Positions 15,406 through 29,363 of a stretch of DNA of 64,000 nt are shown here, piece after piece (position 1 is the stretch's first letter; the number at the start of each line of letters is the position of its first letter). The position numbers and the translations under genes are program-made. The stretch spans positions 1 to 64,000 of the forward strand of contig WLIV01000015.1 in the NCBI GenBank assembly GCA_009702045.1, given 5' to 3'. This DNA comes from Actinomycetota bacterium. GTDB lineage: Bacteria > Actinomycetota > Acidimicrobiia > Acidimicrobiales > Ilumatobacteraceae. Below the pieces are notes generated by a model, which did not search any database, was not told where the DNA came from, and was given only the letters and a program-made list of their open reading frames with translations.

Positions 15406-16332
15406 TCAGGCGATGGGGTCGGAGAGACTCGCCTCGACCGCAGCAAGATCCGCGGGAAGTACTGATTCGAAGCTGAGCATCTCACCGGTCGATGGATGCA
15501 CCAGTTCGAGACCGGCGGCGTGGAGGAACGGGCGCGGGCACGGTACGGCCACACGGATGCCGCCGTACTGACCATCGCCGACCACCGGGTGACCGATTGC
15601 GCTGAGGTGGACACGAATCTGGTGCGTCCGGCCGGTCTCGAGACGGCACTCGAGCACCGAGACATCGGCGGGGGTGCGATAGGCATGCAGCACGCGGTAG
15701 CGGGTACGCGCCGACTTACCGTCGACCACGACCGACATGCGCATGGGGTCGCGATGGTCGCGACCAATCGGGGCGTCGATGACGCCTACCGGGTTGTCGA
15801 GGTGCCCCCACACGACCGCCCGATACACGCGACCGACGTCGCGCGACGACAGCGCGCTCACCAGGAAGTGGTACGCGCGCTCGGTTCGGGCCACGACCAG
15901 AAGCCCAGTCGTGCCGATGTCGAGACGATGCACAATTCCCGGGCGGTGCGTCTCACCGACATCGGCGATCTCGGGATAGCGAGCGAGTAAACCATTCACC
16001 AGCGTGCGGTCGGGGTTCCCAGCGCCGGGGTGCACTACCAGGCCGGCTGGCTTGTCGACCACGATGATCTGCTCGTCCTCATAGACGACGGTGAAGACCA
16101 CCGAGGCATCGGCCTGAGGTGCTTCCGGCACGGGCAGCATCGCCTCGTCGACGAGCACGACCTGGGTCTCTTTGACGCGCAACTTGCCGATGGTCTGCAC
16201 CACGCCGTCGAGTTGTACGCCGCCGACAGCGATCAGCACCGCAGCGTCGGAGCGACTGCATTCGGTCACCAGCGACACGATGCGGTCGAGCCGTTCACCG
16301 GCCAGAGCAGCAGGAATCTGTTCTTCAATCAC
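15406..16332 (-). CDS. rluD: Pseudouridine synthase, RluD family
   Basis: Isomerises uridines in 23S rRNA. The layout is S4-like RNA-binding domain at the N-terminus (ERLDRIVSLV), then the catalytic domain with HRLDIGTTGLLVVA, whose Asp is the catalytic residue, VDKPAGLVVHPGAG upstream and RTHQIRVHLSAIGHPVVGD downstream. The 308 residues match. The GTG start at 16332 overlaps the lspA stop (GTGA), the common lspA-rluD pairing. The exact target uridines cannot be read from sequence. Confidence 0.92.
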   Translation of the reverse strand: MIEEQIPAALAGERLDRIVSLVTECSRSDAAVLIAVGGVQLDGVVQTIGKLRVKETQVVLVDEAMLPVPEAPQADASVVFTVVYEDEQIIVVDKPAGLVVHPGAGNPDRTLVNGLLARYPEIADVGETHRPGIVHRLDIGTTGLLVVARTERAYHFLVSALSSRDVGRVYRAVVWGHLDNPVGVIDAPIGRDHRDPMRMSVVVDGKSARTRYRVLHAYRTPADVSVLECRLETGRTHQIRVHLSAIGHPVVGDGQYGGIRVAVPCPRPFLHAAGLELVHPSTGEMLSFESVLPADLAAVEASLSDPIA

Positions 16333-16853
16333 GAGCGGACTTCTTTCGGGGAGAACAGCGACCACAACAAAAACAATGCCCCGCCGACGTTGACGCCCAT
16401 GTCGGCGACGTTGAAGATCGGGAACCACTGGAAGTCAATGAAATCGATGACTGAGCCGTGCATCCAGCCATCGCCGCGGAACAGCCGGTCGAACAGGTTG
16501 CCCAGCGCACCGCCCATGACGAAACCGGCGGCAATCAACACGGTACGACTTCCTGAGTGGCGCACGGACACGGCGATGAACACCACGACCAGCAGCGCGA
16601 GCAGTCCAATGATCGGCCCGATGCCCTGCCCCTGCGAGAAGGCCATTCCGCTGTTGAACGACAGGTTCCACTGCAGCGTCCAGATGACGTGATGCCCGCT
16701 CCCGTCCGCAAGCGCGTCGACCGCCCATGCCTTGGTGAGTTGGTCGACTAGCACCACGAGCGCGGCGATGGGCAGCATCAGCGGGAAACCGCTGATGGAG
16801 CGTGAGGACCTGGCCGACTCAGCGACCGGCGCCGAGCGGTCATCGTCGGTCAT
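16329..16853 (-). CDS. lspA: Lipoprotein signal peptidase (signal peptidase II)
   Basis: A membrane aspartyl protease that cleaves prolipoprotein signal peptides after lipid attachment. It has four hydrophobic segments in 174 residues. The signatures VDQLTKAWAV, NSGMAFS, GGALGNLFDRL and FNVADM supply the two catalytic aspartates. The ATG at 16853 overlaps the stop of the DksA-like gene (ATGA) and the end overlaps rluD, so all three are co-translated. Its substrates would include the several lipoproteins encoded in this window. Confidence 0.93.
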   Translation of the reverse strand: MTDDDRSAPVAESARSSRSISGFPLMLPIAALVVLVDQLTKAWAVDALADGSGHHVIWTLQWNLSFNSGMAFSQGQGIGPIIGLLALLVVVFIAVSVRHSGSRTVLIAAGFVMGGALGNLFDRLFRGDGWMHGSVIDFIDFQWFPIFNVADMGVNVGGALFLLWSLFSPKEVRS

Positions 16854-17806
16854 CGTCGACCGATCCCTCCGACCTTCTCCTCGACGAGCACAGTGGCCCA
16901 CGGGATGGCCTCAAGACGTTCGCGCGGGATGGGCCGGCCGGACTCGACGGAGTAGCCGTACGCCCCCGTAGCGAGGCGCGCAATGGCTGCATCGATCTCG
17001 GCGATCGTCTGACGAGCCTGCGCGCTGAGCGCAAGGTCGCGCTCGCGTTCGACGACCATCGTGTCGCCCTCGCCACCCTCGTCGTCGAACTGCACATCGC
17101 CCATCTCATGCTCCTCGATGAGCTGGAGCGCTTCGTCCTCGAGTCGCACTGCCTGACCGGTCGCTCTCGCCTTCTCTTCGAACAACGCGGCGCGCATTGT
17201 GGTGAGGAACTTCACATCGAAGTCTTTGGTGTACGCGAGCCCGTCTTTGGTGACGCCCTTCACGACCGGCTTCTCGGGGACGATCACCACGAACGGCTTC
17301 CTCACCGGCTTGCGCTCGGGCACCTTGGGGGTGACCTTCTCAACGACCTTGGGTACTGGCAACAGAGCGACTGCTTTCTTCGGCGGAGCCGGCGCCGGAG
17401 CAGGCGTGGCCTTCTTCGCCGGCGCCGTGACCGGCGTGGCCTTCTTGACAGGAGCGGCAGCGCTCTTCTTCGCCGGCGCCGCGGTCTTCTTCACAGGAGC
17501 TGCAGCCTTCTTCGTTGGCGCAGCAGTCTTCTTCACAGGAGCTGCAACCTTCTTCGTTGGCGCAGCAGTCTTCTTCACAGGAGCTGCAACCTTCTTCGTT
17601 GGCGCAGCAGTCTTCTTCGCCGGAGCAGCAGCCTTCTTCACTGGCGCTGGGGAGGCCTTCTTCGCCGGAGCAGCAGCCTTCTTCACTGCGGGAGCCGCCT
17701 TCTTCGCCGGAGCAGAAGCCTTCTTCACTGCGGGAGCAGCCTTCTTCGCAGGGACCGCCTTCTTGGTGGTTGCCTTCTTCGCGGTTGCCTTCTTGGCCGT
17801 GGCCAT
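16850..17806 (-). CDS. DksA/TraR-like protein with histone-H1-like tail, no zinc cysteines
   Basis: A 318-residue two-part protein. Residues 1-145 are almost only Lys, Ala, Pro and Thr in AKK/VKK/PTKK repeats, like histone H1 C-termini or the tail of mycobacterial HupB. Residues 195-318 form a DksA/TraR domain: a predicted coiled-coil with an acidic tip, then GRPIPRERLEAIPWAT. The four zinc cysteines of the family are replaced by S286, S289, L307 and E310. DNA binding by the tail and RNA-polymerase secondary-channel binding by the coiled coil are inferences. The ATG at 17806 has GGAGG at 17820..17816. It is translated with lspA. Confidence 0.82.
   Translation of the reverse strand: MATAKKATAKKATTKKAVPAKKAAPAVKKASAPAKKAAPAVKKAAAPAKKASPAPVKKAAAPAKKTAAPTKKVAAPVKKTAAPTKKVAAPVKKTAAPTKKAAAPVKKTAAPAKKSAAAPVKKATPVTAPAKKATPAPAPAPPKKAVALLPVPKVVEKVTPKVPERKPVRKPFVVIVPEKPVVKGVTKDGLAYTKDFDVKFLTTMRAALFEEKARATGQAVRLEDEALQLIEEHEMGDVQFDDEGGEGDTMVVERERDLALSAQARQTIAEIDAAIARLATGAYGYSVESGRPIPRERLEAIPWATVLVEEKVGGIGRR
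17483..17608 (-). repeat. Three 42-bp tandem repeats in the DksA-like gene
   Basis: Three near-identical 42-base units encode the 14-residue repeat AAPTKKVAAPVKKT (residues 67-108); the third unit has Ala in place of one Val. Looser versions flank them. Such in-frame arrays expand and contract by slippage, so tail length may differ between strains. Confidence 0.75.
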
Positions 17807-17858
17807 AGCGCTGAACCTCCGTCGTCCGACGCCGTCGCGTCGATGTAAGGCCGGGATG

Positions 17859-18176
17859 TTACCGCTGATCAGGCTCGAGAGGGCTGATCCACCGCTCCAG
17901 CCGCTGGAACGTGGTTTCGACCGACAACGCCACGACCAGCTGTTTGGACCGCGAGGTGTGTCCGGCGACGAGCGTGACATCTCGCGGACGCAGGCCGCAC
18001 GCTGCAGCCAAGACTGCTTCCACTTCAGCATTGGCGCGCCCGTCAAGCGGCGGGCTGCACACCTTGATCTTCAACTCGTCACCGTGCATACCGACCAACT
18101 TGGCCGCGCTCGCACCCGGCAGCACGCGAACGGCGACCACACAGCCGTCCGGATGCGGACGGATGGGTGTGGTCAA
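17859..18176 (-). CDS. DUF167 (YggU) family protein
   Basis: A small 105-residue cytosolic protein of the widely conserved YggU family, whose function is unknown. The signatures [32 protein letters not shown] and [10 protein letters not shown] are present. The start is TTG at 18176, overlapping the ileS stop (TTGA). It sits 52 bases before the DksA-like gene. YggU genes often neighbour division genes, as here. Confidence 0.88.
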
Positions 18177-21100
18177 CCTGCCACCGCAACCGTGATGTGA
18201 ATCGGCTCGCCGTCAAGGTCGGCGTTGGTCTCACCGGTACCCCAGTTCAACGAGGTGGCGAGCGTGGCATCGGTGAGCAGGTGCTGGAACGCAGTGACCT
18301 GACGGCGCACAGACTCGGGCAAGCCGAGCGTGAGCGAAATACGATCGCTGACCTGCAGCCCCGCGTCGCGTCGCGCCTGTTGCACCAGCCGGACCAGGTC
18401 GCGGGTGACACCCTCGGCCTCGAGTTCAGGCGTGAGGGCAGTGTCGAGCAACACGATGCCGGCGCCTGCCGACAACGGCGTGCTGGCTCCGTCGCCTTGC
18501 ACCACGAGCTTCAGCGCATACTCGCCCTCCTCCAGCGCCACCCCCCCGGCCACCACACCACCGGCGGTCTGCTGCCAGTCGCCGGACTTGACTGCCTTGA
18601 TGACCTGCTGCACCTGACCACCCAAACGCGGGCCGAGCTTGGCGGGTACGACCTGCAGGTCGTAGCTCGCCACCGAATCCACGTCGTCGGTGAGCGTCAC
18701 CGACTTCACGTTCACCTCGTCAGCCACCAGATCGGTGAACGGAGCCAGGCGAGCGGACCCGGGAACAGCAACCTGCAGCGCTGCCAGCGGCTGACGCACG
18801 CGCCGACCATGAGCCTTCCGCAGGCGCAGGGTGCTGCTACAGACATCGCGCACGAGGTCCATCGACTCCACGAGCGCCGGGTCAGCGGGCACGTCAGCGG
18901 CCGACGGGTAATCCGTCAGATGCACACTGCGCTCACCGGTGAGCCCCTGGTACACAGATTCGGTGACCAGCGGTAGCAGCGGGGCCAGTGCGCGGCACAG
19001 CAGCGCCAGCACGGTGTGCAACGTGTCGATCGCGTCCTGATCGCCAGCCCAGAAACGGTCACGCGAGCGACGCACATACCAGTTGGTCAGCGCGTCGAGG
19101 AACGAACGCACCGCTCCGCACGCGGCGAACAAGTCGTACTCGTCCAGTTCGACCGTGATCTCTGCGAGCAGATCGTGCGTCTTGGCCAGAATGTAGCGAT
19201 CGAGCACATCCGTGCTGTCCGTACGGAACGTGCCACTCGTGCCAGCAGCGTTCGCGTACAGCGACAGGAAGTACCACGAGTTCCAGATCGGCAGGATGAT
19301 GTGCCGAACCGTGTCGCGGATTCCGTCCTCGGTGACCATCAGGTCGGTGCCACGAAGGATCGGCGAGCTGAGGAGGTACCACCGCATGGCATCGCTGCCG
19401 TACGTGTCGAACACCATCATCGGGTCGGGATAGTTCTGCAGGCTCTTCGACATCTTCTGGCCGTCGTCGCCCAGGACGATGCCGTGGCTGACGCAGGTAT
19501 TGAAGCTCGGCTTGTCGAACAACGCCGTCGCCAACACGTGCAACGTGTAGAACCAGCCCCGGGTCTGACCGATGTACTCGACGATGAAGTCGCCGGGATA
19601 ATGGCTGTCGAACCATTCGCGGTTCTCGAATGGGTAGTGCACCTGGGCGAAGGGCATGCTGCCGCTCTCGAACCAGCAATCGAGCACTTCGGGCACTCGC
19701 CGCATCATCGACTTCCCGGTCGGGTCGTCAGGGTTTGGTCGCACCAGGTCATCGACGTAGGGACGGTGCAGATCGGTGACCGCCACACCGAAATCGCGCT
19801 CCATCTCGGCCAGGCTGCCGTACACGTCGATGCGCGGATACTCCGGGTCGTCGCTGCGCCACACCGGGATCGGCGAACCCCAGAAGCGGTTACGGCTGAT
19901 GGCCCAGTCGCGAGCGTTGGCCAGCCACTTGCCGAACTGGCCATCCTTGATGTGTTCGGGCACCCAGCGGATCTGCTGGTTGAGTTCGACCATACGGTCG
20001 CGGACAGCAGTGACCTGCACGAACCACGAGCTGATCGCTCGGTAGACCAGCGGCTCGGCGCAGCGCCAGCAGTGCGGGTAGCTGTGCAGGTAGCTGTCGT
20101 GACGGACGACGACTCCGCGCGCCTTGAGGTGCTTGATCACCTCGGGGTTGGCATCGAAGACGTGCATGCCGGCCCAGTCGGTGACCTCGGCGGTGTAGCG
20201 GCCGTGTTCGTCCATCGGACACAGCGTCGGGATACCCACGGCGTTGCAGATGTTTTGGTCGTCCTCGCCGAAGCCGGGGGCCATGTGCACCACACCGGTG
20301 CCGTCCTCAGTGGTGACGAAGTCGGCGGCCAGCACGTGGAAGGCGTTGGGCGTGTCGGCGAAGTACGGGAACAATGGGGTGTACTTGCGGCCGACGAGAT
20401 CCGCTCCGGTGAGCGTGCCCACCCGCGTCGCACCGGCGAGTTCCTTCTCGTACGAACCCAGCCGTGCCTCGGCGAGGATGTACCGCGTGGTGTGGCCCTC
20501 GGAGTCGGTCTCCTCCATCACCGCGTACTCGATCTCCGGGCCCACAGCGAGGGCAAGGTTGCTCGGCAGCGTCCAGGGGGTCGTCGTCCACGCAAGGATG
20601 ATCTCGCCGCTCTCAAGGTGGAACTGCACCGTGAGTGCCGGGTCCTGGCGATCGCGATACACATCGTCCATACGTGTCTCGGTGTTGCTGAGTGGCGTCT
20701 CGCACCGCCAGCAGTAGGCGAGCACGCGGAAACCCTCGTAGACCAGTCCTTTGTCCCACAACGTCTTGAAGGCCCACATGACGCTCTCCATGTAGGAGGT
20801 GTCGAGTGTCTTGTAATCGTTGTCGAAGTCGACCCATCGGGCTTGGCGATTGACGTAACGGTGCCAGTCGTCGGTGAATCGCAACACGCTCGTGCGGCAG
20901 GCGTCGTTGAACTTGTCGATGCCGAACTTGGCGATCTCCGGGTGGCCGCTGATACCCAGTTCCTTCTCGGCCACGACTTCCGCGGGCAACCCATGGCAAT
21001 CCCAACCAAAGCGGCGATGCACTTGCTGGCCGCGCATCGTGCGGTAGCGCGGCACAGCGTCCTTCACGAACCCCGTGAGCAGATGGCCGTAGTGCGGCAG

Positions 21101-21259
21101 ACCGTTGGCGAACGGGGGGCCGTCATAGAACACGTACTCGTCGGCCCCGTCCCGGGCGTCGATCGAGGCCTGGAACGTACCGTCGGCGTCCCAGAACGCG
21201 AGGATCTCGCGCTCGACGGTCGGGAACGATGGCTGGGGTTGGACGTTTGGGTAAGTCAC
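18173..21259 (-). CDS. ileS: Isoleucyl-tRNA synthetase, eukaryote-like type
   Basis: Charges tRNA-Ile. The HIGH motif is PHYGHLLTG (from residue 55), KMSKS is at 602-606, and the editing domain includes [17 protein letters not shown]. The HYGH form and the lack of a C-terminal zinc finger mark the second (eukaryote-like) IleRS type found in mycobacteria, which is generally insensitive to mupirocin. It has 1028 residues. The GTG at 21259 is set by AGGAG at 21269..21265; that ribosome site is partly buried in the T-box hairpin immediately upstream. Confidence 0.95.
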
Positions 21260-21261
21260 TG

Positions 21262-21370
21262 GTGCTCCTGTGCGGCTTGCACAGGGACGAACCAGAGGTC
21301 CGCGGTACCACCCTGCTTGCAGCGCCCCGCAGGACCCTGCCACTCGACTTCGCCAGCGATATCGGGCTGG
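21262..21370 (-). promoter_or_regulatory. T-box riboswitch of ileS (translational, ultrashort Stem I)
   Basis: On the minus strand the T-box core AGGGTGGTACCGCGG occupies 21314..21300; its UGGU can pair with the ACCA end of uncharged tRNA-Ile. About 40 bases upstream, CCAGC/GCTGG arms (21370..21366 and 21357..21353) enclose an 8-base loop containing ATC (21360..21358), the isoleucine specifier codon. This is the ultrashort Stem I known from actinobacterial ileS T-boxes. Downstream, CCTGTGC/GCACAGG (21285..21267) forms a hairpin that takes in part of the AGGAG ribosome site. Uncharged tRNA should free it and switch on IleRS translation. No terminator is seen, so control is translational. Confidence 0.93.
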
Positions 21371-21467
21371 ACCCGTCCGGTTCTACTGGGGTATTCGGCG
21401 AACCTCATACCTGTTCTTCCGGAGGCTCAGAGGTGATGGCCTCGTCAACGCCGTGAAGAAAATCCTA

Positions 21468-21481
21468 GCGCCCGAGGGCGC
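21468..21481 (-). terminator. Possible terminator after divIVA
   Basis: GCGCC/GGCGC arms followed on the minus strand by TAGGATTTTC. This could terminate the divIVA message. The adjacent TAGGAT (21467..21462) could alternatively serve as a -10 element for the ileS leader. Confidence 0.35.
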
Positions 21482-21491
21482 AGCGCGTTCG

Positions 21492-22442
21492 TCAGCGGAG
21501 CTCGTCGCCACCGATTCGGAACGGATCATTCTTCGATCCGGGCCTGATGATCGGCACTTCCGCGGTGATGCCGTGGCCAGCGTCCATCGGCATCGACGCG
21601 GTGAGCGGCACCTCGCCGGTGGGCACGTCGTCGGGGGCGAACAGCGACATCGGGTCGTCGTCGGCGTCGAGTTCGAACGCACTTGCGGCAGGAGCGACCG
21701 CTGCGGTGGGCGCTGGTGCGGCAGGCGCCGCTGCGGCAGGCGCCGCCGAGCGCCGCACCACGGGCTCGGCCGAGGCGGACAGCAACGGGCGGCGCATATC
21801 GGCCAGCCCACCCGGCACGCGCTCGACGATCTCGTGCAGTTCGACAGCGGTATCGCGCAGGCGCTCGCGCTGGGCCTGGACGTACTGCTCGAGTTGATCG
21901 ACGTCGGAGAGCAGGAAGTCGCGACGGGCCAACAGTCCCTGCACCTCATTCTCGGCGAGGGTCAACTCGTCCTCCTTCGAGCGACGAGCCTCAGCCTTGG
22001 CCTCATCGATCATCCGCGCTGCCATCGATCGAGCACTGTCGACAACACGACTGGCTTCGTCACGGGCACCACTGGTGACCGATTGCGCTTCGGCCCGAGC
22101 CTCGGCGACGGCCGTGTCGGCCGTGCGCTGAGCGAGCAACAGTGTGCGACTGATGACCTCGGTGTCGCCGACCGGGAGCCCGGCGGGCGGTGTGACACCG
22201 TGCACGGGGGCGTCCTCCCGGTTCGGTGCCGCCGAGCGGGCCGCTGCTGGCGTCTGCTGGGACAACTCCTGCAGACGACCGACCGCTGCACGAGCACGCG
22301 ACTCCATCGCCGTTGCCTGACCGTGCGCAGCCTCTAGCGCCGCAGCAACTTCATCCTTGAAGGCATCGACCTCATTGGGGTCGTAACCCCTTTTCACCGT
22401 CTTGAAGTCGGTGCTGCGGATGGCCTGCGGCGTGAGTTCCAT
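21492..22442 (-). CDS. divIVA: DivIVA/Wag31 polar and septal scaffold
   Basis: A coiled-coil protein that marks negatively curved membrane and organises tip growth or septation. The N-terminal DivIVA domain is clear: STDFKTVKRGYDPNEVDAFK. A linker (about 65-90) and a long coiled coil (about 95-205, including TVADTAVAEARAEA-like heptads) follow, then an Ala/Pro-rich and acidic tail ending KNDPFRIGGDELR. It has 316 residues. In this phylum DivIVA lies beside sepF and ftsZ, as here. The ATG is preceded by a TAACAT -10 at 7 bases, so it has its own leaderless promoter. Confidence 0.92.
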   Translation of the reverse strand: MELTPQAIRSTDFKTVKRGYDPNEVDAFKDEVAAALEAAHGQATAMESRARAAVGRLQELSQQTPAAARSAAPNREDAPVHGVTPPAGLPVGDTEVISRTLLLAQRTADTAVAEARAEAQSVTSGARDEASRVVDSARSMAARMIDEAKAEARRSKEDELTLAENEVQGLLARRDFLLSDVDQLEQYVQAQRERLRDTAVELHEIVERVPGGLADMRRPLLSASAEPVVRRSAAPAAAAPAAPAPTAAVAPAASAFELDADDDPMSLFAPDDVPTGEVPLTASMPMDAGHGITAEVPIIRPGSKNDPFRIGGDELR

Positions 22443-22449
22443 TCCGTAG

Positions 22450-22455
22450 ATGTTA
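22450..22455 (-). promoter_or_regulatory. -10 element TAACAT of divIVA (leaderless)
   Basis: TAACAT on the minus strand ends 7 bases before the divIVA ATG. There is no Shine-Dalgarno sequence. This gives divIVA a promoter separate from sepF. Confidence 0.5.
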
Positions 22456-22493
22456 GGTCGTCAGCACACGCACCGAGAGGATGGACGGGAGAA

Positions 22494-23102
22494 TCAGCCG
22501 CCGTAGCCCTGATCGTCGTAGGACGAGTGCCGTGGCGGCGGCTTCAGCAGGTAGACACCCGTGGCCACCTTCTCCATCGTGCCGGCGAGGCCGTAGCACA
22601 GGCCGCTGGCGAAGTCGATGAGACGACGAGACGCGTCGCGGTCGGCCGCCTCGAGATTCATGATCACCGGCTGACCTTCCTTGAACTTGTCGGCAATCTC
22701 CTGCGCTGAGGTGAAGCGGTGCGGCTTCACCGTGTACGGGTCGCTCCCCGATGACGCAGGGGCAAGACGAGTGACGGGCGGAGCGGGTCGCGGGTTGATC
22801 GGGCGCGGTTGCACGCTGGAGTCGTCCGGCGCAGGGACCGGACGACGGATCGTCGCATCCGGCATGGCCTGCGGGAACGAGGGCCGCGAGGGCACAGTGC
22901 GCACAGGAGGCTGCTCGGGCTCATACTCATGCTGCTGGTAGCCGCCACGCTGCTGGCGGCCGCCTCCACCGCCCATCTCGTCGCGCATTGCAGGGCGACT
23001 CTGACGCATCGGGCGCTCAGGCTCCGGCGCCATGTCATAGTCGTCGTAGGCATCGTCGGGCCCGAGACCCAAGTAATCCATCGCCTTCTTCCACATCGAC
23101 AT
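22494..23102 (-). CDS. sepF: Cell division protein SepF
   Basis: Membrane anchor and bundler of FtsZ, taking the place of FtsA in actinobacteria. An N-terminal amphipathic helix (MSMWKKAMDYLGLG) would bind the membrane. A long disordered Gln/Gly/Pro/Arg-rich linker (about 20-120) leads to the FtsZ-binding SepF domain, with FTSAQEIADKFKEGQPVIMN and DFASGLCYGL. At 202 residues it is typical. AGGAGG lies upstream of the ATG. It follows yggS by 27 bases. Confidence 0.95.
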   Translation of the reverse strand: MSMWKKAMDYLGLGPDDAYDDYDMAPEPERPMRQSRPAMRDEMGGGGGRQQRGGYQQHEYEPEQPPVRTVPSRPSFPQAMPDATIRRPVPAPDDSSVQPRPINPRPAPPVTRLAPASSGSDPYTVKPHRFTSAQEIADKFKEGQPVIMNLEAADRDASRRLIDFASGLCYGLAGTMEKVATGVYLLKPPPRHSSYDDQGYGG

Positions 23103-23129
23103 TCACGACCCTCCTGCAGTGCACCGAGG

Positions 23130-23825
23130 TTACCGCACCGACGCCGCCGAAACGGGACGCTCACCGAACAGGGCGCTCCCGATGCGCACCTGCGTAGACC
23201 CCTCTTGTACTGCAACCTCCAGGTCGTCGGTCATTCCCATCGAGCAAATGTCGAGTTCGAGCGCGTCAACGAGCGCACGCACCACACGGAATCCAGCTCG
23301 TGCTGCCTCGGCGCCCCCTGTCGTGGGACCCACCGTCATCAACCCGCGGACGTCGAGCCCGGCCGCGCGCGCTGCATCCACCAACGCCGGCACTGCCTCG
23401 ATCGGACAGCCTCCCTTGCCCGGCTCATGCAGACATGCTGCTTGGATCAGCACCGCCGCCCCAGGTGCCCGCTTGGACAACTCGCTGACGAGCGACAGGC
23501 GATCGACGGACTCATAGACGTCGATCAGCGACGCCAATTGACGCACCTTGTTCGTCTGCAGTTGTCCGATGAAGTGCACCTCGAATGGCAGAGGAACAGC
23601 TCCCCCATCGCCATCCAGTTGACTGGCGAACTTGGCGACGACCTCCTGCGCATAGTTCTCGCCCACCGCCGCGCATCCCGCACGGTGCGCCGACCAGCAG
23701 TGTTCGATCGAGAACAGTTTCGTGACGGCCAGCACCGACACATCAGCCCCGCCGGCGCGGGCGATACGTTCGCGAACTGCCGCCAACCGTTCGGCCACCA
23801 ACCGATCGAGCGCAGCGGAGTTCAT
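23130..23825 (-). CDS. PLP-binding homeostasis protein, YggS/YlmE family
   Basis: A pyridoxal-phosphate-binding barrel protein that buffers vitamin B6 and amino-acid pools; it has no known catalytic activity. The PLP lysine is in VLAVTKLFS, with VGENYAQE, HFIGQLQTNK and the phosphate-binding STQVRIGSALFG near the C-terminus. The 231 residues fit. The ATG at 23825 overlaps the pgeF stop (ATGA). The yggS-sepF linkage next to ftsZ is conserved in Gram-positive bacteria. Confidence 0.92.
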   Translation of the reverse strand: MNSAALDRLVAERLAAVRERIARAGGADVSVLAVTKLFSIEHCWSAHRAGCAAVGENYAQEVVAKFASQLDGDGGAVPLPFEVHFIGQLQTNKVRQLASLIDVYESVDRLSLVSELSKRAPGAAVLIQAACLHEPGKGGCPIEAVPALVDAARAAGLDVRGLMTVGPTTGGAEAARAGFRVVRALVDALELDICSMGMTDDLEVAVQEGSTQVRIGSALFGERPVSAASVR

Positions 23826-24514
23826 GCTCGCGCCCGTGTGCAGATCGTCATCACCTGTCGGCCCAGTTGTGCGCGCCGACGGTGCGAGAAGTACCGGTCG
23901 GGATGGCACCCGGTGCATTGCGACACATCGGTGAGATGCACGCCCACCTCCGCCAGCGCCAGACGAACCACAGCCGGCATGTCGAGTGCGGGGGTACCCC
24001 ACGACGTGACGCCGGTGACCTCCGGGCCGAACCGTTGCCGAACGACCTCCAGGTCGTCGGCGCCAAACTCGTAACAACAGGGATGGATACACGGGCCGAG
24101 CCACGCCTGCGGCGGGGCGGCCTGGCGCCCCATGGCCGACACGGTGGCAGCAAGCACGCCATCGCGTGCGCCACGCCAACCAGCGTGGGCGGCGCCGATA
24201 CTGCCATCGAGCCCGGCGAACACCACCGGGGCACAGTCGCCCACCCACACCGCGAGCACCGCGCCACGGGCCCGCGTCACGATCGCATCGCCCACTGCGA
24301 AGTCGTGCTCACCGGGTGTGCCGACCACCACGACGTCGGTGCCATGCACCTCGTCGAGTTGGGTCCACACTCCCGGAGCGAACGCCAGCCGCCGGTGCCG
24401 CAGCGCAGCACGAGGTGCCTCGATGTGGAAATCACCGTTGCTCACCGTGCTGCAGCGGATCTCGGCGATGCAATCGGCCAACTCGACCGTGCCGGGCCCG
24501 AGCGGCAGGGTCAC
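23822..24514 (-). CDS. pgeF: PgeF/YfiH-type purine nucleosidase/laccase-domain protein
   Basis: A copper/zinc 'multicopper polyphenol oxidase' fold protein. Family members correct wrong L-Ser insertion in peptidoglycan precursors (PgeF) or cleave purine nucleosides. Metal ligands are visible in [23 protein letters not shown] and PCCYEF. It has 230 residues. The GTG at 24514 overlaps the ftsZ stop (GTGA) and its end overlaps yggS, so it is co-translated with ftsZ. That position fits a peptidoglycan quality-control role. Confidence 0.88.
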
Positions 24515-25656
24515 TTCAAGAAAGAAGGTACGTCGAAGTCGTCGTCGTCGTCGAGCGGATCGGACTTGTCGTCCGCAAAGAGATCCTTGAGCGTGCTGGT
24601 GGGGCGCTGCTCGGGCACCGCTTTGATCGCCGGCCGCGTAGCGGCATGTGTACCACTGGACGTCGCCGACGAACTGGTGGAGCTTGTGTTGCTGGAGCCG
24701 CCACCGTCCCACCGGTCGAAACCGGCGGCGATGACAGTGACCTTGACCTCATCGCCCATCTCGTCGTCGATGACGGTACCGAAGATGATGTTGGCGTCCT
24801 GATGCGCGACGCCATGGATGATCTCGGCAGCAGCGTTCATCTCGAACAGCCCCATGCTGGACGGACCCGTGATGTTCAACAGAATGCCGCGGGCGCCGTC
24901 GATCGCGGCCTCGAGCAACGGACTGCTGATGGCCGACTTGGCGGCAGTGACCGCGCGGTTCTCGCCGCTGGCCTGGCCGATGCCCATCAGTGCCGAACCG
25001 GCGCTGGAGAGGATCATCTTCACATCGGCGAAGTCGGTGTTGATCAGGCCAGGCGTGGTGATCAGGTTGGTGATACCGGAAACACCTTGCAGCAACACCT
25101 CGTCGGCCATCTTGAACGCGTTGAGCACGCTGGTCTTCTCATTCGCCACCGTGAGCAGGCGGTCGTTCGGAATGACGATGAGCGTGTCGACCTTCTCCTT
25201 CAAGCGCTGCACACCGGCGTCGGCCTGTACGGCACGACGGCGTCCCTCGAAGCTGAACGGGCGGGTGACCACACCGATGGTGAGCGCGTTCATGCTGCGC
25301 GCCACCTCGGCGATGATCGGGGCCGCACCGGTGCCGGTGCCGCCACCCTCGCCGGCGGTGATGAACACCATGTCGGCGCCCTTGATCATCTCTTCGATCT
25401 CGTCGCGATGCGTCTCGGCAGCATTGCGACCCACGTCGGGGTCGCTACCGGCACCGAGACCGCGCGTGAGGTCGCGCCCGATGTCGAGTTTGACGTCGGC
25501 ATCACTCATCAACAGCGCCTGGGCATCGGTGTTGACCGCGATGAACTCAACACCCTTCAACCCTGCGTCGATCATGCGGTTAACGGCGTTGACGCCACCA
25601 CCGCCGACGCCGATCACCTTGATGACGGCGAGATAGTTCTGCGGAGCGCCGGCCAT
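24511..25656 (-). CDS. ftsZ: Cell division GTPase FtsZ
   Basis: Tubulin homologue forming the cytokinetic ring. The GTP-binding signature GEGGGTGTG is at about 102-110, the T7-loop region [15 protein letters not shown] is intact, and the N-terminus is standard. A Ser/Thr-rich linker (about 320-345) leads to the C-terminal peptide DFDVPSFLK, the SepF-binding tail of actinobacteria. It has 381 residues. The ATG at 25656 is fixed by CGGAGG 8 bases upstream. A 136-base gap after ftsQ probably holds its own promoter. No ftsA is present. Confidence 0.98.
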
Positions 25657-25719
25657 CAGATGAACCTCCGGGGAGAGTAAGGGTAACAAAGCATGTAAGG
25701 AAGAACCTGCTGGTCGGGG

Positions 25720-25725
25720 ATCGTA
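25720..25725 (-). promoter_or_regulatory. Possible ftsZ promoter -10 (TACGAT)
   Basis: TACGAT on the minus strand in the ftsQ-ftsZ gap would give a leader of about 55 bases that carries the ftsZ ribosome site. There is no consensus -35. Separate ftsZ promoters here are known in Streptomyces; this one is a prediction. Confidence 0.35.
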
Positions 25726-25792
25726 GCGAATCTGCGCCCCTGAAAGGTGGAGGGGCACTCGCGCAAGGTCGGCCGAGCCAGGGATTCCAGGC

Positions 25793-26998
25793 TCAGGAGG
25801 TGCACGGTACCGCGCCCACCTCCTCGGTGGAAACATCCAACTCGCATACCTTCTTGAGTCCTTGACGGATCTGACCCAGCAGACGCGCCAACTTTTCATC
25901 AAGATTGCGCAGATCGCCCAAGCGCACGTTGACGGTCTCGTTGAGCAGCATCGTCAGACCACCGGTGGCCGTGTCGACCCCGACCGATGTGGTGATCGAG
26001 CGGATCTCCGCCGGTAAGCCGACCACCATCTGCGCTGCTGCCGCGTATGGAGCGGGGGCGAAGTCGCCTCGCGGCGTGTCGGGGTTCTGGCCCGTGACCA
26101 GCAGGTACGCGGTGGGTTGTCCGGCGATGACGTCGAGCACTCGACCTTGGATGTCGATCACCCGGAACTGGCCGTCATGCCCTTGGAACGTGACAATCGG
26201 ACGGCGCTCACGAATGTCGATGTACACCGAATGCGGAAAGTCGGTGCGCACGGTCGCCTGTTCGACCCACGGGATCGCCTCCAGGTCTTGTTCGGCCTTG
26301 TGCGTGTCAGCGAGCAGCACCGCATGACCCTTGAGGTCGTTCACTACCTTGTCGAGCAGCTCCTGGTCGGTGTACACCGCTCCTTGGACGTAGACCGTGC
26401 GGACGTCGAACACGGACGAGGCAAACACCGCGACCACCAAGATGATCGCCAGCACGACACCGCCAGCGATACCCAACAGCAGCACGCGACGTCGGCCCTG
26501 CTCGCGACTGACCGCGTTGCGCCGAGCGCGCATCCGCGGGTCGATACCACCTGCGGTGCGCGTGGGAGCGGGCTCAATGACCCCGTAGTCGTCGAGATCG
26601 TCGATGACGATCGTGGAGCGGGTGCTGTCCTCGGCGGCGGCGTCGCGTCGCTCGTGGAAGCCACGCTCCTTTTCCTCATCGAGATACACCAGATCGGGGA
26701 GCTCGTCGTCAGCGATGACAATCGTGCGGCGCTCCGGGGCCGCTGACGGCACCTCGTCTGCCTCGACGGCCTCGACGTCATCTGCGTCGTCGTCATCTGC
26801 GTCGTCGTCGAAGTCGACATCGCCGGTGTCATCGCCGGTGTCGTCGTCGGCCTCATCGGCGTCGTCGATACCGAGCATCCGATCGAGTGCAGGGTCGTCG
26901 AAGTCGTAGTTCGGAGTCGGGTCGGAAAATGCGGTCTGCAGCTCGTCGAGCACATGGTCGGGCACGTGATCAGTGCCGGGCAGGTCGGGTTCCTTCAC
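25793..26998 (-). CDS. ftsQ: Divisome protein FtsQ with acidic cytoplasmic tail
   Basis: A bitopic division protein that links early and late divisome parts. A transmembrane helix (about 171-194) is followed by the POTRA domain ([17 protein letters not shown]) and the FtsQ beta domain ([16 protein letters not shown]). The cytoplasmic tail of 170 residues is unusually long and acidic, with runs of Asp at about 45-75 ([20 protein letters not shown]) and few basic residues until about 150. The total is 401 residues. GTG start, GTGA overlap with murB. Confidence 0.9.
26778..26870 (-). repeat. Short tandem repeats encoding the FtsQ acidic tail
   Basis: Repeated GAC/GAT-rich units are visible on the plus strand as two adjacent copies of a 15-base unit (TCATCTGCGTCGTCG) and two copies of TCATCGCCGGTG. 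They encode the DDADD and GDDT runs. Slippage could vary the tail length. Confidence 0.6.
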
Positions 26999-27954
26999 CA
27001 GGACACCCCCTCAGTGTGTTCTGCAACATCGTCCATCACGTCGGCAAAGCCCACGAGGCGCACCTCGCTGCGCAGATCGAATCCGGTGTGCACCCTGACC
27101 TGTTCGCGCACGAACGTCATCACCGCCCGAACGTCCGCTGCGGTGGCGCCGTGTTCGGCCTGGATGAAGTTCGCGTGTTTGTCGCTGACGCATGCGCCAC
27201 CGACGCGATAGCCGCGCAGGCCCAGCCGGTCGATGAGGACCGCGGCGGGCAGTTCACCGGGAATGGGATTCACGAACACCGAACCTGCATTCTGGCCGCC
27301 CGGTTGATGCTCGCGACGCCACCTCACAATCTCGGTGAGTGCAGCCTCGGACTCCACCGGGTCGCCGTGGGTCAACTGGACACGCGCGTCGAGCACCACC
27401 TGATGATCGGCGAGAGCAGAGCCCCGAAAGCGGAGGCCCAAGCGATCGACGGGAACCCAGGCTCGCTGAGCGCGTTGCAGGTCGTACAGGTGCACGCCGA
27501 TCAGCGAGGCAGCGATGTCGCTGCCATGGCCGCCGGCGTTCATTCGCACCGCACCGCCGAGCGTGCCGGGCACCCCGACCGCCCACTCGAAGCCGATCAA
27601 ACCGGCCGCAGAGCAACGCCGCGCCAGCACCGGGAGCGCCACTGCGGCACCAGCGCGCACGACGGTGTCCTGGAACTCGATCCAGTCCCCCATCGCGGCC
27701 AACGACACCGCGATTCCAGGAAACCCCGAATCAGCCACCAGCATGTTCGAGCCGCGCCCCACCACCAGCACCGCCAGACCCGTGGCTCGCGCGACCTCGC
27801 CGACACGTGCCAGTTCGCGTTCGTCGCGCGGTACGGCAAACACCGCCGCCGGACCGCCGAGCTTGTAGGTGGTGAAGGGCGCCAGGGGTTCGTCGGCGGT
27901 GGCGAACGCCCGCAGTTGATCGAACGCCTGCCGCTGGACAGTCGCGGGGCTCAC
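26995..27954 (-). CDS. murB: UDP-N-acetylenolpyruvoylglucosamine reductase
   Basis: FAD enzyme reducing UDP-GlcNAc-enolpyruvate to UDP-MurNAc with NADPH. Visible motifs are FTTYKLGGPA, VVGRGSNMLVADSGFPG (FAD binding), GFEWAVGVPGTLGGAVRMNAG, and NAGSVFVNP whose Ser is the proton donor; IQAEHGATA follows late in the chain. It has 319 residues. GTG at 27954 overlaps murC and the end overlaps ftsQ. The reading frame stays open far upstream inside murC, but the family begins at this GTG. Confidence 0.95.
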   Translation of the reverse strand: MSPATVQRQAFDQLRAFATADEPLAPFTTYKLGGPAAVFAVPRDERELARVGEVARATGLAVLVVGRGSNMLVADSGFPGIAVSLAAMGDWIEFQDTVVRAGAAVALPVLARRCSAAGLIGFEWAVGVPGTLGGAVRMNAGGHGSDIAASLIGVHLYDLQRAQRAWVPVDRLGLRFRGSALADHQVVLDARVQLTHGDPVESEAALTEIVRWRREHQPGGQNAGSVFVNPIPGELPAAVLIDRLGLRGYRVGGACVSDKHANFIQAEHGATAADVRAVMTFVREQVRVHTGFDLRSEVRLVGFADVMDDVAEHTEGVSW

Positions 27955-29363
27955 GTCGCGCGCAACCTTCGCTCCGAACGCCTCGTCTGCACTTCGTCCG
28001 GCAGGGACGCAATGTCCCCGCACCCCATCGAGATGCACACGTCGCCTTCGCGCAGTTCGCCCGCCAGGAACTCGACCAGCTCGGCCCGTTTCGGCATCCA
28101 CACCACGCGGGCACGCGGATGAGCGTCGAGCACGGCATTCACCAACAACTTGCCGGTGATCCCCGGAATCGGCGCGGTACCAGAGGCATAGATCTCGGTG
28201 AGCACGACGACATCGGCATCCACGAACGCAGAGTGGTAGTCGGGCCACATCGACACGATGCGGTTGAACCGGTTCGGCTGGAACACTGCGACCACACGGT
28301 TCCACCCGTCGCCGCTCTGGCGGGCCGCTGCCAGCACTGCGCCAATCTCGGACGGCAGGTGGGCGTAGTCGTCGACCAGCGTTGCCCCGCCGTCGACACC
28401 GCGCACGTCGAAACGGCGAGCGACTCCACCGAACTTGGCGAGCGCTGCGGCCGCAATCTCGAAGCTCACGCCGATGGTGACCGCCATGGCCAACGCACCG
28501 GTGGCATTGCGCACGTTGTGCACCCCGCGCAACGGCAGCGAGACCGATCCAAGTCGTTCGCCGCGATACAGCACCGAGAACGTGAACGAGCCTTCGCCGG
28601 CCATCACGTCGACCGCGCGGAAATCCGCCTCGGGTGAAGTGCCGTAGGTGATACATGAATGCCTGGCGGCGAGCGCCGCCGTGGTCGGGTCGTCGATACA
28701 CAGCACCTTGGGACCGTCGACCTGATCGAGGTACTGGTCGAAGCCCTCGACGATCGCCTCGAACGTGCCGTAGTGATCGAGGTGGTCGACCTCCACGTTG
28801 GTGAGGATCGTGCCGTAGAGCGGCAGCTGCAGGTGTGTGCCGTCGCTCTCGTCGGCTTCCACCACCAACCACTCGGCCCCGGTCCACTGGGCGCCGGTAC
28901 CCATATCGGTCACGTCACCGCCGATCACGAAGCTGGGACGAACGCCAGCCTCGGACAGCATCAGCATCAGCATCGAAGTCGTCGACGTCTTCCCGTGGGT
29001 GCCGGCGACCGCCAACGACTTCGCCCGCGCGCAAATCGCTGCCAGCATCCCCGAACGGTGCATCGACAACACGCCGACCTTGTCCGCTTCGTCACGCTCG
29101 ACATTACGAGCCGGTATGGCAGTACTCCACGTGATCGCGTCACGATCGTGCACCAGTTCACGCGAATGGCCAACGTGCACGTCGACACCCGCAGCGCGAA
29201 CCCGATCGAGCACACTGCGTTCGCGAATATCGCTACCGCTGACGTCGTGCCCCATTTCCGCCAGCACGATGGCGATCGCGCTCATACCCGGCCCGCCCAC
29301 GCCGACGACGTGCAGCCGACGCGGTTCGGTGAGGTCGATCGGCGGGTTGGGTGCGGTACTCAC
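27951..29363 (-). CDS. murC: UDP-N-acetylmuramate--L-alanine ligase
   Basis: Cytoplasmic ATP-dependent ligase adding the first residue, L-Ala, to UDP-MurNAc. It has an N-terminal UDP-binding Rossmann domain (HVVGVGGPGMSAIA), the ATP loop AGTHGKTSTTSM, then central VEADESDGTHLQL and C-terminal VFQPNRFNR. It has 470 residues. GTG start overlapping murG (GTGA), end overlapping murB (GTGA). Confidence 0.96.
   Translation of the reverse strand: MSTAPNPPIDLTEPRRLHVVGVGGPGMSAIAIVLAEMGHDVSGSDIRERSVLDRVRAAGVDVHVGHSRELVHDRDAITWSTAIPARNVERDEADKVGVLSMHRSGMLAAICARAKSLAVAGTHGKTSTTSMLMLMLSEAGVRPSFVIGGDVTDMGTGAQWTGAEWLVVEADESDGTHLQLPLYGTILTNVEVDHLDHYGTFEAIVEGFDQYLDQVDGPKVLCIDDPTTAALAARHSCITYGTSPEADFRAVDVMAGEGSFTFSVLYRGERLGSVSLPLRGVHNVRNATGALAMAVTIGVSFEIAAAALAKFGGVARRFDVRGVDGGATLVDDYAHLPSEIGAVLAAARQSGDGWNRVVAVFQPNRFNRIVSMWPDYHSAFVDADVVVLTEIYASGTAPIPGITGKLLVNAVLDAHPRARVVWMPKRAELVEFLAGELREGDVCISMGCGDIASLPDEVQTRRSERRLRAT

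Follow-up and report, generated by a model that had tools for sequence, protein, structure and literature searches.

Positions 21452-21257 on the minus strand of the window, the whole 64,000-nt stretch of DNA that was analysed, almost certainly hold a complete class II (translational) T-box with an ultrashort Stem I, which, judging from its sequence, would form the 5' leader of ileS and sense uncharged tRNA-Ile. When the window was scanned with Rfam at the gathering scores, no match was obtained. Using cmscan, the Rfam T-box model RF00230 was found to match 21457-21280 over its full length (model positions 1-219; 48.2 bits, E 6.6e-9), with the K-turn, the S-turn, IIA/B and the T-box all taken into the alignment. 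This match was the sole T-box in an Rfam scan of the whole 3.65 Mb genome. The score is below the RF00230 gathering score of 93, a cut-off that is the curator's setting for the family model and not a biological feature. As a control, the ileS loci of two Mycobacterium, one Saccharothrix and one Pseudonocardia were put through the same scan and gave no T-box match at E 0.001; these four Actinomycetes leaders are of the known type and carry the same element by sequence. Since leaders of the known type also fail, the sub-cut-off score says nothing against membership, and the Rfam gathering cut-off does not cover class II T-boxes. The initial annotation had proposed a translational T-box with an ultrashort Stem I, directed at isoleucine and controlling ileS, and had named a covariance-model scan as a check. 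The full-length match, though under the gathering score, together with the AUC specifier and the hairpin over the Shine-Dalgarno (SD) sequence, bore out this class. The anatomy did not survive: the element begins at 21452, ~80 nt upstream of where it had been placed, the specifier hairpin had been misplaced into the IIA/B pseudoknot, and the true Stem I and the Stem II with its S-turn had been overlooked.

Our own evidence comes from the sequence and its conservation, from covariation, from a tRNA gene that matches the leader, and from two balanced folds that exclude each other (Table 1). Stem I reads, 5' to 3', GGC-GUU-GA-C-GAGG-CCAUCA-CCUC-U-GA-GCC. Four pairs close the CCAUCA loop, 2 nt separate the 5' arm from the specifier, and this short stem has no distal tRNA-elbow motif (IDTM). 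Its inner pairs are exchanged on both sides, being GAGG/CCUC in Acidimicrobiia compared to CCGG/CCGG in Actinomycetes, and the pair beside the K-turn (leader positions 10/25), which is U-G in most Actinomycetes leaders, is C-C or C-U here. Covariation was assessed in an alignment of 17 leaders of the window's family (A3) and in one of 36 leaders that includes Actinomycetes (A2). In A3, 97.5% of the structure cells were paired (90.5% in shuffles) and the covariation score was 0.222 compared to 0.090, with 0/500 shuffles as high. In A2, 96.8% were paired and 18/35 pairs were altered on both sides, giving 178 such cells compared to 64 in shuffles (0/500). The covariation signal was abolished when the pairing partners were shifted one to three columns, a control that preserves the relatedness. 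Besides the inner pairs of Stem I, both-side exchanges were seen in the lower part of Stem II (C-G to U-A and C-G to G-C), in Stem III, in three IIB pairs (one of them, for example, G-C in 20 and A-U in 16 of 36) and in helix A1 of the antisequestrator, whose outer pair is A-U in 19 and G-C in 17 of 36 leaders; in the upper part of Stem II, four pairs were altered on both sides. The leader has both the Stem II with S-turn and the IIA/B pseudoknot that characterise class II, with covariation in Stem II and IIB.

Table 1. Positions of the predicted leader elements and of ileS in the window, with the evidence for each.
Feature	Position	Strand	Evidence
Putative -10 promoter element TAGGAT	21462..21467	-	TANNNT upstream of Stem I in relatives
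Ultrashort Stem I: GGC/GCC, K-turn (tandem G-A), GAGG/CCUC, hexaloop CCAUCA	21424..21452	-	predicted fold as drawn; both-side changes in inner pairs
Specifier AUC, complement of tRNA-Ile anticodon GAU	21435..21437	-	AUCA invariant in 36/36 aligned leaders; tRNA-Ile(GAU) gene present
Stem II with S-turn strands AAGAA / AGUAGAA	21377..21422	-	Rfam alignment; pair exchanges
Stem IIA/B pseudoknot: IIA CGGG/CCCG, IIB CCAG/CUGG; holds the hairpin initially annotated as Stem I	21353..21375	-	IIB covariation
Stem III	21319..21340	-	4/4 tested pairs altered on both sides
T-box core AGGGUGGUACCGCG	21314-21301	-	sequence; UGGU at 21310-21307
Antisequestrator: A1 CAGGG/CCCUG, bulge UGGUACC, A2 GCGGACC/GGUUCGU	21282..21315	-	-13.5 kcal/mol; A1 covariation
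SD sequestrator hairpin CCUGUGC-AAGCC-GCACAGG	21267..21285	-	-13.8 kcal/mol, z -2.9
Shine-Dalgarno AGGAG, 5 nt ahead of GTG	21265..21269	-	sequence
ileS, isoleucine--tRNA ligase, 1028 aa, GTG start (21259-21257)	18173..21259	-	TIGR00392, 852 bits

The predicted antisequestrator and sequestrator are nearly equal in stability, and the CCU at 21285-21283 is common to helix A1 and the sequestrator. As in class II elements, the sequestrator excludes the antisequestrator and there is no terminator. The T-box core named in the initial annotation was recovered on the minus strand, and the hairpin that it had drawn over part of the ileS ribosome site corresponds to CCUGUGC/GCACAGG, which covers most of the SD. 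Within the family, the SD arm of a leader pairs better with its own partner than with a swapped one (mean -10.9 compared to -9.1 kcal/mol; 0/2000 shuffles as good), and the same test on Actinomycetes gave -12.5 for own and -10.2 kcal/mol for swapped arms. In families f44 and f49 the swapped-arm test was not significant (334 of 2000), and no sequestrator covariation is claimed there. The sequestrator is weak in two leaders, L028 and L013. The genome has a tRNA-Ile(GAU) gene with discriminator A73 and with the CCA not encoded; the AUC specifier fits the GAU anticodon and the UGGU of the bulge fits the ACCA end of this tRNA. The T-box bulge is UGGCACC in leader L002 and UGGGAUC in L003, and in G034, the genome of L002, tRNA-Ile still ends in A73, so that the fourth pair of the bulge would be lost.

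A TANNNT motif starts 14-17 nt upstream of Stem I in 17/18 family leaders, against 1.0 expected from shuffles; the distance is 14-21 nt in 55/59 Actinomycetes leaders (3.3 expected) and 13-19 nt in 51/58 classified Acidimicrobiia leaders. From this placement, the transcript would start a few nt ahead of Stem I. Characterised relatives are the basis for assuming that the leader binds tRNA, senses whether it is charged and switches in the direction given here. The anticodon arm of tRNA-Ile(GAU) would be received, through the AUC specifier, in a groove formed by Stem I, Stem II and the IIA/B pseudoknot. An uncharged tRNA would pair its 3' ACCA with the UGGU of the bulge and the antisequestrator would keep the CCCU strand, leaving the SD free for IleRS to be made. 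If the tRNA is charged with isoleucine, the CCU strand would pair with the AGG of the SD and translation would be blocked.

In the initial annotation, Stem I had been identified as CCAGC[CCGATATC]GCTGG at 21370-21353, an 8-base loop closed by five pairs, with its ATC as the specifier. These letters are present and the ATC is found there in 13/17 family members, but it occurs in just 14/36 leaders, compared to 36/36 for the upstream AUC, and is absent in the family members L002, L006, L009 and L016. The pairs at 21370-21353 belong to helix IIB, part of the known pseudoknot, and their covariation is that of this helix, while the fifth pair of the proposed hairpin (C88-G97 in leader numbering) competes with stem IIA. 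The hairpin also has no K-turn, and a separate Stem I with the invariant AUCA lies upstream of it. We consider this placement of Stem I exceedingly improbable. A comparison of leaders from relatives, which had been suggested as a further check, found the element conserved but the specifier in the upstream stem.

The mode of control and the integrity of the element were weighed in the same way. Most T-boxes act by termination (PMC7583486), but here the hairpin is not followed by a U run, the SD itself, only 5 nt ahead of the GTG, makes up its 3' strand, and its arms covary with the SD side. There is next to no chance that this T-box controls transcription termination instead of translation. It is also very unlikely that the T-box is degenerate and no longer works, as might be supposed since three congeneric genomes and many others within the family lack the element and two relatives have altered bulges, UGGC and UGGGAUC: all conserved positions are intact in the window, and the covariation extends to its close relatives. 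A working translational T-box is the reading that we retain.

The IleRS encoded in the window shares 60-67% identity with its mycobacterial and pseudonocardial counterparts (Actinomycetes), whose genes have the same ultrashort T-box leader, and mostly 42-45% with the IleRS encoded downstream of the T-boxes in other Acidimicrobiia families. In a tree of IleRS, the Actinomycetes-like group, including the IleRS of the window, and the group of the other Acidimicrobiia families are separate. Four rows from wrong reading frames (L011, L039, L047 and L059), which gave a false outgroup in this tree, were excluded from later trees. The ultrashort form in this family therefore accompanies an IleRS lineage that Actinomycetes have too. 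The lineage and its leader could have been inherited vertically, or ileS could have been transferred together with the leader. The nearest IleRS genes are from Acidimicrobiaceae/Ilumatobacteraceae records, in agreement with the extension to an Acidimicrobiia-like lineage that had been suggested at the outset. The accompanying description of a eukaryote-type IleRS adds nothing unusual, given the identity to mycobacterial and pseudonocardial enzymes behind the same leader. The ileS product also scored high on the MupA and MupB models, under their cut-offs. Elsewhere, L149 (G083) has an intermediate T-box ahead of a far more divergent IleRS-like gene (30% identity to that of the window). The IleRS fragment of L009 (G032) groups with Pseudonocardiaceae and L127, from the same genus, does not; the placement of L009 possibly reflects transfer or a short-fragment effect. 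The gene order on the minus strand of the window (15406-29363) is murC, murB, ftsQ-like, ftsZ, a laccase-domain gene, YggS-like, a SepF-like ORF (22494-23102), DivIVA-like, the T-box and ileS, followed by a lysine/alanine-rich ORF with a DksA-like end, lspA and rluD-like; these neighbours were read from translations, and just ileS and DivIVA were compared with a profile library.

The RF00230 search found the element in 16/61 genomes, namely that of the window, 11 others of its genus and 4 from other genera of the family. An IleRS protein scan of named genomes yielded 80 ileS loci (from Acidimicrobiaceae/Ilumatobacteraceae records and Actinomycetes). With model R2, 64/395 Acidimicrobiia genomes were matched, with one match each. 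Every T-box locus that was read stands ahead of an IleRS gene. Automatic classification of 58 fetched loci gave 46 with a long, 9 with an intermediate and 3 with an ultrashort Stem I; a tenth intermediate stem, L150, was assigned by eye and with an earlier script. Not counting the window's family, there are 46 loci with a long, 10 with an intermediate and 2 with an ultrashort Stem I. The distal AGNGA..RGTG motif, taken as a sign of the elbow-binding arm, was present in 46/46 long stems and in 0/12 shorter ones, and the spacing from the 5' arm to the specifier falls into three sets of about 2, 16-22 and 70-75 nt. Of the ultrashort loci, L127 belongs to the window's family, and L128 (G295) and L135 (G412) lie inside f49, which has mostly long Stems I and a different IleRS lineage. 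On the IleRS tree, a quick tree of mostly metagenome assemblies, the class of Stem I changes at least 6 times outside the window's family. Counting changes alone gives no direction, but with a single conserved motif in the long arm, shortening is the more economical interpretation.

Many relatives in the window's family have the same IleRS without a T-box, including G001, G003 and G011 of the window's genus. On the tree of the window's IleRS group, the presence of the T-box changes at least 5 times, and the three T-box-free cases of the same genus form one clade inside the carriers. In T-box-free loci, with start codons chosen by rule, a TANNNT lies 10-17 nt ahead of the start codon in 14/18 (1.3 expected), with 1/3 among the same-genus cases, and a search for an SD in the 18 loci found none (0/18). 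L195, L197, L198, L018-L026, L029 and L030 have the TANNNT 12-17 nt before the ileS start and no SD. The position of these motifs suggests that a T-box-free ileS likely gives a leaderless mRNA that starts where carriers start the T-box leader. Taking both sets of changes together, we lean towards the view that in Acidimicrobiia the ileS T-box has had its Stem I shortened in repeated, independent events, from long to intermediate and ultrashort, and that in the window's family the whole element has been gained or lost as a unit between promoter and gene, leaving a leaderless, SD-less ileS mRNA.

Translational T-boxes ahead of actinobacterial ileS were first proposed in 2005 (PMC1262725), the structures of the M. 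tuberculosis and N. farcinica ileS T-boxes have been described (PMC7583486, PMC10651847), and translational T-boxes may carry a long, intermediate or ultrashort Stem I (reviewed in PMC7583486). The class II ileS T-boxes of Mycobacterium and Nocardia (M. tuberculosis, M. smegmatis, N. farcinica) have the same order and kind of all parts as the window, from the Stem I with K-turn and AUC through the Stem II S-turn, IIA/B, Stem III and the antisequestrator to the SD sequestrator, and their ileS genes belong to the same IleRS lineage. The window differs in its GAGG/CCUC Stem I, in having no U-G beside the K-turn and in its short A2 helix. Like the class I T-boxes of RF00230, whose long form stands before ileS in other Acidimicrobiia families, the leader aligns with the whole model; unlike them, it lacks ~70 nt of Stem I, among them the distal AG-bulge/loop motif, and control would be by SD sequestration. 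The class II search of the T-box database is stated to have used taxid 1760, which now denotes the class Actinomycetes, and so seems not to have covered Acidimicrobiia, a class of its own. A search of the available literature found no paper naming T-box riboswitches with Acidimicrobiia, or T-box with Ilumatobacter. The class II ileS T-box is known and ordinary in kind, and its members in Acidimicrobiia are new. They place translational T-boxes, missed by the Rfam cut-off, in this class. Two points deserve following: Stem I has repeatedly changed in length, and the T-box alternates with genes that are apparently leaderless. If the repeated shortening is true, the ultrashort Stem I would be a convergent end state and not a single actinobacterial invention. 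How a tRNA sensor copes without the elbow-binding arm is a standing question, for which these relatives are a natural series: with long, intermediate and ultrashort Stems I before the same gene in related genera, and genomes of the same genus without the element, direct comparison is possible.
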